From contig NZ_CP022242.1 of assembly GCF_003351865.1 (NCBI RefSeq), positions 1,240,001 through 1,304,000 on the forward strand: 64,000 nt of DNA, in the 5' to 3' direction. The notes under the pieces are model-generated. The model searched no databases, was not told where the DNA came from, and saw only the letters and a list, made by a program, of their open reading frames with translations. Positions 5,266 through 63,764 of the stretch are shown piece after piece. A program made the translations under genes and the position numbers. The stretch is from Methanofervidicoccus sp. A16. GTDB taxonomy: Archaea > AGJL01 > Methanococci > Methanococcales > Methanococcaceae. The first letter of the stretch is position 1. Every line of letters begins with the position of its first letter.

Positions 5266-5901
5266 TTTTTTAAACTGGATGTTGTAATCCTCTTTACTCT
5301 TTACCACCCCTATTATCTCTACATTCCCGTATTTCTCAATAGTTTCAAAGGTTTTTTCATAGTATAAAACATCCTCTAATCTAGTTATACAGTTGATAAT
5401 AACCCCCTTGATCTCAATCCCTTTATTCCTCAGATGTTCAACTGTTAGGAGTGTATGGTTTATAGTGCCTAAGTTAGGTCTAGAGACAACAACTGCAGGG
5501 AGATCTAAGAACTTTATTAGATCTGACATTAGGAAGTTATCCCTTATAGGTACTGCAACTCCTCCTGCCCCTTCAACTATGAGGTATTGGTATTTTTTAC
5601 TTAGTATATCGAAGGATCTCTTTATTCTATCTTTTATTTCGTTTAAGGTTATATCGTATCCTTCAACCTCGAAGGCGATGTTTGGAGATAGGGGATTTTT
5701 CAGGTTTATGGGATTTAAAATACTTAGATCTTCCTCTAAGTTTAAGGTGTTCTTAAGTGTTAAAGTATCTTCTACACCACCAGTTTCTACAGGTTTTAAG
5801 TAGCCTACCTTTATATTTTCTTTGTATTTTAGGTGACTTCCTATTATAGAGGAGACGTAGGTTTTTCCAACTCCTGTATCTGTTCCTGTGATGAATATCA
5901 T
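5254..5901 (-). CDS. bioD: ATP-dependent dethiobiotin synthetase
   Basis: Closes the ureido ring of dethiobiotin from diaminopelargonate, CO2 and ATP. The P-loop GTDTGVGKT is at residues 6-14, the KPVETG loop near 36-41 and EGAGG in the middle, all typical of BioD. Length 215 aa is normal. The ATG follows GGTGA. Convergent with the chelatase gene, whose last 12 bases it overlaps. No other bio genes are adjacent. Confidence 0.93.
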   Translation of the reverse strand: MIFITGTDTGVGKTYVSSIIGSHLKYKENIKVGYLKPVETGGVEDTLTLKNTLNLEEDLSILNPINLKNPLSPNIAFEVEGYDITLNEIKDRIKRSFDILSKKYQYLIVEGAGGVAVPIRDNFLMSDLIKFLDLPAVVVSRPNLGTINHTLLTVEHLRNKGIEIKGVIINCITRLEDVLYYEKTFETIEKYGNVEIIGVVKSKEDYNIQFKKLLE

Positions 5902-27405: not shown

Positions 27406-28137
27406 TTAAAATTCTTTATTATTTTTATAATTATTTTTATTATTCTTTAAATTATCATTTTGATAGGAACTAGAGTAATTAGAATCTAAATTATAACCTT
27501 TAAATCCTCCGATAAGCCTCTTCACCCTATAACCAGCCAACTTAAGTATTGTAGCCATTATCTGACTCCTCAACCCACCTCTTGCACAGAAGATCACAAC
27601 TGTTTTACTCCTATCTAACTTTTTTATCTCCCCTAATATCCTCTTTAGATTCTTCTCTACGATGTCAAGTGCCAAATCTATAGCCTTCTCTTTTCCCTCT
27701 TTTTTGTATGTTTTCCCTATGATCTCATACTCTTCATCTAAGAAGAGAGGTATATTTATAGCGTTAGGTATAGTACTCCTTTTATACTCCCTTGGACTCC
27801 TAACATCTACAACTATCACATCCTCCTTATCCATCCTCATAAACTCATCTAAGGTGATCACATCCTCCACCAATTCACCACCAATAGCCTTCAAGAACCT
27901 CTTTACATCTATCCTCTCGAAGTAAATATCGTACTCTCCATATCTCTTTACACCGAAATCTTTACCCTCGAGGAACTCCTTAGAGGATCTCAGTATAAAG
28001 GATGCCAAATCTCCACTTAACTTTCCGGCCAGTATCTTACTACCGTCTGTTATCATCTTTCTTCCAGTATTCAACACTATGGCTAAAACTACATCCCTTC
28101 TGAAGGTTATTAGTCTTGCTAAGATCTCTTCCTCCAT
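27406..28137 (-). CDS. tRNA 2-selenouridine synthase, rhodanese (N-terminal) half
   Basis: Half of the two-gene archaeal SelU that uses selenophosphate to convert 2-thiouridine to 2-selenouridine in tRNA anticodons. Residues ~93-215 are a rhodanese domain with [20 protein letters not shown] and the active Cys in [14 protein letters not shown]; the first ~90 residues are an archaeal extension. The partner P-loop gene lies directly upstream and the two overlap by 19 bases. The last ~23 residues ([16 protein letters not shown]...) are encoded by the inverted terminus of a mobile element, so the original C-terminus has been replaced. Start ATG overlaps the partner's end; site GGGATAAC. Confidence 0.88.
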
Positions 28138-28793
28138 GTTATCCCATGATATTTTAACTTCTCCTCTATAAACTCTTCTATCTTTTTTACAGATTCCTCT
28201 ATATCCCTGTTATAAACCACTAGATCTGGTTCTATCTTCTTAATATTTCTCATATAGTGGGATCTATACAACTCCTTCTCAATTAACTCTGCAGCCTCGT
28301 AGTATTTATCCTCCCTGATCTTCTCTATTATCTCATCTATCTTCCTTATAATGTCAGGATTTTTAAAACTCTCCCTCAATAAAAGGATCCTTTCAAGGAG
28401 AAGTTTTTTCTCTTTTTCATTCTTAGGTTTATACCAAGATACTAAGTTTTCTATCTGGTAGTTATATGGACAGTCTATAAGTATTTTATATGTATAATTT
28501 TTAACATCTGCCAATAACTCAGGTATCTTCAACTTCTTTACACCCCCTATCTTCCTACCCTCGTACTCTACAATAAGGTATCCTACCTCCTGAGCCTCCC
28601 TTATCTTTTCATTGATCTCTCTGTCAAACTCTTCCTGACTCGCCATATTTAGATGGTAAAGATCTCCCAAGATACTACCCCTCGTCCTCGCTATGCCCTC
28701 TATATCTATTACTGGATGGTTTCTCTTTAACCTCTGGAGTATTTCAGTTTTTCCACAGCCAGTTTTTCCAAACAACCCAAAGATAACCACCAT
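28119..28793 (-). CDS. tRNA 2-selenouridine synthase, P-loop (C-terminal) half
   Basis: Partner of the rhodanese gene. 224 aa starting with [20 protein letters not shown], an N-terminal Walker A, followed by [13 protein letters not shown], a characteristic stretch of the C-terminal half of bacterial SelU (YbbB). In Methanococcales this enzyme is known to be bipartite. The gene is translated first; its last 19 bases overlap the rhodanese gene. With the Sec-encoding hesB gene it shows that the organism makes selenophosphate. Confidence 0.88.
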
Positions 28794-33429: not shown

Positions 33430-33768
33430 AATACGGGGGGTTTACTGTGAGAATTAGTTAAACTCAGGGATTGAATTAGGGTTTTATTGATCCTGCTCAT
33501 ATATCCCCCTGTCTCGATATATGAGGGAAAACTAAACAAATATGCACAGAGTTTGGGAGTATCAACTGCGAAACTGCGATCTTGAAGGGGGTAGAGATAT
33601 AGTTGGAAATAGAAATATCCCTGTTAGAGTCCTGAAGATGTGGGGAGTTCCGTTCCCCCCGAAAGCCCTCCGATGAAACTGAGAGGAGGGAAGGTTATCC
33701 GCTACGATTGGTTTACAAGTTCCAAAAGTAGCGGATAACCAGAACGGAGGAAGGAGTATCCCATTAGG
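33430..33768 (+). ncRNA. GC-rich structured region upstream of hesB: candidate ncRNA or long mRNA leader
   Basis: Unlike other spacers here this stretch is G/C-rich and full of helices. GGTTATCCGCTAC (about 33693-33705) pairs perfectly with GTAGCGGATAACC (about 33728-33740) around a TTGG/CCAA inner stem. CCCTCC/GGAGGG (about 33666-33688) closes GATGA-aa-CTGA, which looks like a kink-turn/K-loop bound by L7Ae in archaeal H/ACA and RNase P RNAs. TCCGTT (near 33650) can pair with AACGGA (near 33743), enclosing both hairpins, and GGGGA/TCCCC forms another. It ends ~8 bases before the hesB ribosome site. No tRNA, SRP or convincing RNase P signature was found. Strand is taken from hesB and is not proven. 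Confidence 0.5.
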
Positions 33769-33775
33769 TGACAAA

Positions 33776-34072
33776 ATGATACCTGTTAAAATATCTGAGG
33801 ATGCTTTAAAGTTTATAAAAGAAAAAGTTGAAGAGACTGGAATCGATACCTTAGTAATATCCTTTGAAGGTTTTGGATGAGGGGGTCCTAAGTTCAATAT
33901 AAGTTTGAAAACTCCCGGTAAAGGGGACGAACTAATATACGATGGAGAGTTTAAAATCTATCTTGACAAGATAGGAAGACAATTCCTCAATGAGATAGAT
34001 CTAACTCTGAAAAAGTCCCTATTCTACGGTAAATACCTTGCCCTTAAAAATGCCGGGAGAAGATTATGCTAG
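33776..34072 (+). CDS. HesB/IscA-like selenoprotein, in-frame UGA = selenocysteine
   Basis: 98-aa HesB-like protein related to A-type iron-sulfur carriers. ATG at 33776 follows AGGTGA. The frame MIPVKISEDALKFIKEKVEE continues to GFG-TGA-GGPKF, TGA at 33878-33880 being codon 35, and carries on with ISLKTPGKGDELIYDGEFKI to a TAG at 34070-34072. The TGA sits where a Cys is expected in the GFGCGGP motif of this family. An archaeal SECIS begins one base after the stop. A HesB-like selenoprotein is known from Methanocaldococcus-type methanogens, so read-through as Sec35 is expected. Conventional gene finders split or miss it. The last residue is a Cys. Confidence 0.93.
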
Positions 34073-34110
34073 GCCAAACCTAAGAACCCTTTAAAGGGAT
34101 TAGGTTTGGC
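34073..34110 (+). promoter_or_regulatory. Archaeal SECIS element in the 3' UTR of the HesB-like selenoprotein
   Basis: GCCAAACCTAA (34073-34083) pairs over 11 bp with TTAGGTTTGGC (34100-34110). An asymmetric internal loop follows, GAA (34084-34086) opposite a single A (34099), then a three-pair CCC/GGG stem (34087-34089 / 34096-34098) and a six-base loop TTTAAA. This is exactly the archaeal SECIS consensus, and it starts directly after the stop codon. Confidence 0.95.
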
Positions 34111-63708: not shown

Positions 63709-63764
63709 TACCTCAGAGCTCATACGGATCATCATAAATCAGTATAGGATTCTCATCATAGGTA
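63709..63764 (-). ncRNA. C/D box sRNA (2'-O-methylation guide)
   Basis: Read on the minus strand: terminal stem TACCT, box C ATGATGA (63759-63753), guide GAATCCTATA, box D' CTGA (63742-63739), spacer TTT, box C' ATGATGA (63735-63729), guide TCCGTATGAGCT, box D CTGA (63716-63713), closing AGGTA. Both box pairs are perfect, the spacing between D' and C' (3 nt) and the 56-nt size are those of archaeal sRNAs. By the D+5 rule the D guide would direct methylation of the C within target AGCUC (AGCTCATACGGA). Targets not identified. Confidence 0.92.

Follow-up and report, generated by a model that had tools for sequence, protein, structure and literature searches.

The main question raised by this locus is whether the TGA inside a short hesB-like reading frame is decoded as Sec or ends the gene. 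The original prediction, made within a window of 64,000 nucleotides from the single-contig Methanofervidicoccus sp. A16 genome (1,504,113 bases), described a HesB/IscA-like gene of 98 residues with TGA as codon 35 in the context GFG-U-GGPKF. Reading of the locus base by base confirmed this description, and the features on which the following analysis rests are listed below.

33764-33775, + strand: AGGTGA resembling a Shine-Dalgarno site, with the spacer leading to the ATG, from reading of the sequence
33776-34072, + strand: hesB-like gene, interpreted as a selenoprotein gene (98 codons, open reading frame 33776-34069, TAG stop 34070-34072)
33878-33880, + strand: in-frame TGA, codon 35, interpreted as Sec, motif UxGP (GFG-U-GGPKF; TGA in 33 of 33 orthologues)
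34067-34069, + strand: TGC, codon 98, C-terminal Cys, almost invariant in family alignments (exception L024)
34073-34110, + strand: SECIS element with 11-bp basal stem, GAA/A internal loop, CCC/GGG upper stem and 6-nt loop
SECIS parts, + strand: 5' arm 34073-34083; GAA 34084-34086; CCC 34087-34089; loop TTTAAA 34090-34095; GGG 34096-34098; A 34099; 3' arm 34100-34110

The hesB-like gene and its relatives

Results indicate that 33776-34072 is almost certainly an ordinary, intact HesB-like selenoprotein gene. The encoded protein scores 71.4 bits against TIGR01911 (HesB_rel_seleno), above the NCBIfam trusted cut-off of 66.35, and this match together with an IscA/SufA fold supports the predicted family identity. 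The UxGP motif with Sec that marks a HesB-like selenoprotein is present and is conserved across the orthologues, most of which also have GGTGAT-like sites upstream. HesB-like protein has been listed as an archaeal selenoprotein (PMC2933860), the family has been tabulated with the UxGP motif and TIGR01911 (PMC13188914), and for the M. maripaludis member mutagenesis together with 75Se labelling provided confirmation (PMC11097638). That protein (MMJJ_08070) and the A16 protein share the TIGR01911 family, the UxGP motif, the Sec site, a 3'-UTR SECIS element and the order Methanococcales. Because the family is published, the A16 finding is ordinary and already known; the gene represents one more clean orthologue in a family catalogued across Methanococcales. 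The suggestion that automatic annotation would lose the gene is doubtful, since NCBI has the curated selenoprotein model TIGR01911 and RefSeq holds HesB-like Sec entries (PMC13188914).

Homologues were surveyed in 36 Methanococcales genomes, and a search at the level of the phylum gave the same 36; a published selenoprotein survey covered about 30 Methanococcales and Methanopyrus genomes (PMC11227280). The hesB-like gene was found in 33 of the 36, as one copy with exactly one internal TGA in each. The three assemblies with no match (G026, G031 and G032) are fragmented, although G026 has a completeness rating of 99%. Tblastn against plasmids returned weak homologues only. The hesB-like selenoprotein is a known kind of gene, conserved throughout Methanococcales; the prediction that it is known in "some" members of the order was correct as to its being known and understated its distribution, which takes in nearly all of them. 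As the TGA is common to 33 of 33 orthologues from these genomes, a sequencing error at codon 35 is excluded. No Cys version of the gene was detected in the Methanococcales genomes surveyed.

Alignment of 28 orthologues revealed invariant positions that include I6, A10, I14, F30, G32, the Sec site, G37, P38, F40, D51, L71, S81 and G85. Only two chalcogen residues are conserved, namely Sec35 and the C-terminal Cys, which is the last residue of every orthologue except one. In this single exception (L024 of G010) the last codon is TAC (Tyr) instead of TGC (Cys), and near-identical relatives retain the Cys. In the genus of G001-G014 the basal stem of the SECIS element includes the Cys and stop codons. 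The Cys is kept both where the SECIS element follows the stop codon, as in A16, and where the element has been lost (L019 and L026), which argues for constraint on this residue at the protein level. The comparative value of the family lies in a Sec that is never swapped for Cys in 33 genomes and in a near-invariant C-terminal Cys that goes with it.

The SECIS element and decoding of the TGA

The structure predicted behind the stop codon (11-bp stem, GAA/A internal loop, CCC/GGG stem and 6-base loop) is present as described and covaries across the family. Its distance from the stop codon requires correction, as the stem was said to start one base after the TAG and actually abuts it with 0 nt between. 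RNAfold recovered the same structure at -22.1 kcal/mol (z = -3.5), with the upper stem and 6-nt loop folding as 4 bp plus a tetraloop. A GAA/A descriptor with a basal stem of at least 5 bp, which the published eaSECIS definition fits (PMC13188914, PMC11227280), matched a single site on both strands of the window, 34073-34110. In first-order Markov random sequence of matching composition (30 replicates) the descriptor gave 0.3 matches per 64 kb per strand at basal stems of at least 5 bp, falling to 0.03 for stems of at least 7 bp; with stems of at least 9 bp no replicate gave a match. The site has the GAA/A loop, about three C-G pairs above it, the paired stem below it and the 3' UTR position of archaeal eaSECIS elements. 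Compared with the canonical euryarchaeal elements of fruA and sps, it is alike in the GAA/A loop, the three C-G pairs, the variable loop and the 3'-UTR location and differs only by its long basal stem.

Comparison of 24 family SECIS elements demonstrated that 95.1% of the cells are paired, with a covariation score of 0.745 (shuffled alignments, 0.230 +/- 0.025) and with 10 of 12 pairs changed on both sides. Sliding the partner by one base reduced the score to at most 0.30, and all shifted registers were far worse. The covariance search proposed with the original prediction found 34073-34110 at 45.6 bits using a family-built model that included this very sequence. The same model returned no other SECIS site in the A16 genome at E <= 0.05, with 150 of 569 candidates scored in the first pass. 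A match at window positions 5500-5525 (18.1 bits) falls within a different gene encoded on the opposite strand and was judged a chance hit. No Rfam SECIS model matched 34073-34110 at the gathering threshold or at E <= 5. Behind the hesB-like stop codon of G018 (L025), AAA/A stands in place of GAA/A; an AAA/A variant is known from fwuB and functions at reduced efficiency (PMC11881835).

The original prediction had named two findings that would speak against it, a genome without Sec machinery and homologues lacking both Cys and Sec at codon 35. Neither holds. A16 carries most of the Sec-decoding genes, with SpcS (554 bits), PSTK (315 bits), tRNA-Sec (66 bits) and a SelD gene that has its own in-frame TGA and GAA/A SECIS element, and TGA occupies codon 35 in every Methanococcales homologue found. 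The window also contains a selenouridine synthase gene.

27406-28793, - strand: selenouridine synthase SelU, split into a rhodanese half (TIGR04568) and a P-loop half (TIGR04569) whose adjacent genes overlap, each exceeding its NCBIfam cut-off

Were the TGA a true stop codon, the locus would be a decaying pseudogene or two short open reading frames, and the hairpin would be a terminator. The position of the hairpin directly behind the stop codon would agree with such a reading, as would three Methanocaldococcus genomes in which the TGA is kept and the SECIS element is lost. This reading is nevertheless hardly credible, as the TGA and the downstream frame are retained in 33 of 33 orthologues, the hairpin covaries and keeps its GAA/A motif, a terminator scan gave no terminator-like site at the hairpin, and the M. 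maripaludis orthologue was labelled with 75Se (PMC11097638). Decoding of the TGA as a different residue, for instance as tryptophan or by near-cognate readthrough, is also very improbable. An open frame alone does not give the identity of the residue, but a canonical SECIS element, Sec machinery and a Sec-type SelD occur together in the A16 genome, the residue at codon 35 aligns with a conserved Cys of IscA-type chains, and selenium is present in the M. maripaludis orthologue (PMC11097638). We therefore infer Sec insertion at codon 35 in A16; the experimental proof is that of others for the M. maripaludis orthologue.

Fold and possible role of the protein

An AlphaFold model of the hesB-like protein has a pLDDT of 89, with a C-terminal tail below 50. 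Foldseek matched the model to 1r94 (IscA), 1x0g (IscA), 2d2a (SufA) and also DsrR, and the match to 1r94 (E 2e-5, TM 0.69) places it in the IscA fold. The sequence matched TIGR00049 weakly and had a Pfam Fe-S_biosyn score of 23.7, just short of the gathering score of 26.3. A whole-genome PF01521 search of four Methanococcales genomes gave no match, the hesB-like gene itself scoring below the cut-off, and this search is consequently uninformative about other A-type carriers.

The hesB-like protein resembles the A-type Fe-S carriers IscA, SufA and ErpA in its fold and in the alignment of Sec35 with their first conserved Cys. It differs from them in having about 20% identity and, in place of a conserved Cys combined with a C-terminal CxC, Sec35 and a single terminal Cys (Cys98). 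The predicted product is a small protein of IscA/SufA (A-type carrier) fold with Sec where IscA has its first conserved Cys, and its last residue, Cys98, is a second conserved thiol in place of the CxC. Such a protein might bind or carry an Fe-S cluster, a related cluster or iron, or might perform Sec/Cys redox chemistry near that function. The missing CxC weighs against taking IscA-type cluster binding for granted, and disruption of the gene in M. maripaludis leaves nitrogen fixation intact (PMC11097638), so that the mutant phenotype lends the proposed role no support. An Fe-S or iron carrier role is a guess, one whose prospects we put at about even.

A thiol/selenol oxidoreductase forming a Sec35-Cys98 selenenylsulfide, or a protein for handling selenium or metal, is a tentative alternative to the carrier role with a somewhat less than even chance of being correct. 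In its favour, Sec35 and the C-terminal Cys are the sole conserved chalcogen residues, and selenoproteins are mostly thought to be redox proteins (PMC13188914). The fold, however, is that of IscA, SufA and DsrR and is not thioredoxin-like, and with the tail pLDDT below 50 the Sec35-Cys98 distance is unreadable from the model.

Missing SECIS elements in Methanocaldococcus and the hesB-like gene neighbourhood

We take G004 to be M. jannaschii or of that type, and G014, G008 and G007, which fall in the same genus, are on this assumption called Methanocaldococcus. In these three genomes (L019/L046, L026/L048 and L030/L047, respectively) the TGA of the hesB-like gene is kept and no SECIS element is adjacent. 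A covariance search with filters off gave nothing above 13.3 bits over 12 kb around each of the three genes. A relaxed descriptor scan reaching 300 bases upstream of the ATG and 600 bases past the stop codon was likewise negative. In G007 only a shortened hairpin, GCTAACTGGAAAGTTAGC, is left, and the GAA/A motif is destroyed. Readings of sequence clusters indicate that the usual hesB-like neighbours are a proteasome alpha gene upstream and an ADP-forming acetate-CoA ligase gene downstream. In G014 and G008 the acetate-CoA ligase-like gene has moved elsewhere in the genome, with no orphan SECIS element found near it, and a different, convergent gene lies 20-25 nt after the hesB-like stop codon. 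The new neighbour and the short spacer are common to both genomes, and loss of the SECIS element therefore probably predates their split.

Sec decoding is intact in the genomes with SECIS-less hesB-like genes: their VhuD-like and SelD genes carry TGA together with canonical SECIS elements, and SpcS, PSTK and tRNA-Sec are present. The codons after the UGA differ between G014 and G008 by seven synonymous and no non-synonymous changes, for which a simple neutral simulation gave a chance probability of about 0.0002 or less; this comparison covers sixty codons in two genomes and constitutes little data. The pattern suggests that these codons are still under purifying selection. It is conceivable, if rather unlikely, that in the G014/G008 lineage a rearrangement removed the SECIS element and the UGA is still decoded with no canonical SECIS element nearby; decoding would then depend on a signal that is non-canonical, lies at a distance or acts in trans, or on SECIS-independent readthrough. 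An element further away on a longer transcript, or some other constraint on the DNA, could also account for the pattern. A literature search for reports of SECIS-less hesB-like cases found none. As a by-product more interesting than the A16 gene itself, the three UGA genes that lack a SECIS element could serve as naturally occurring tests of how strict the need for a neighbouring SECIS element is in archaeal Sec decoding, and also as test cases for the archaeal SECIS-binding factor.

In place of the common neighbours, the A16 gene has cfbD and a Zn-ribbon gene with a CDC48-like gene beside it, the one notable difference from the known HesB-like selenoproteins of Methanococcales. A gap of 600 bases separates cfbD (TIGR03282) from the hesB-like gene and contains a repeat that is separate from the selenoprotein gene. 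Several copies of this repeat occur in five sibling genomes and one copy was found in the A16 genome. A peptide in the gap that had been read as a TnpB tail received no NCBIfam support. The repeat, and a small RNA elsewhere in the window, are as follows.

About 33630-33749: repeat of ~120 nt, dispersed and intergenic; the arms of its 19-nt inverted repeat lie at 33693-33711 and 33722-33740
63711-63763, - strand: C/D box sRNA sR3 (Rfam RF01133), just above the gathering score
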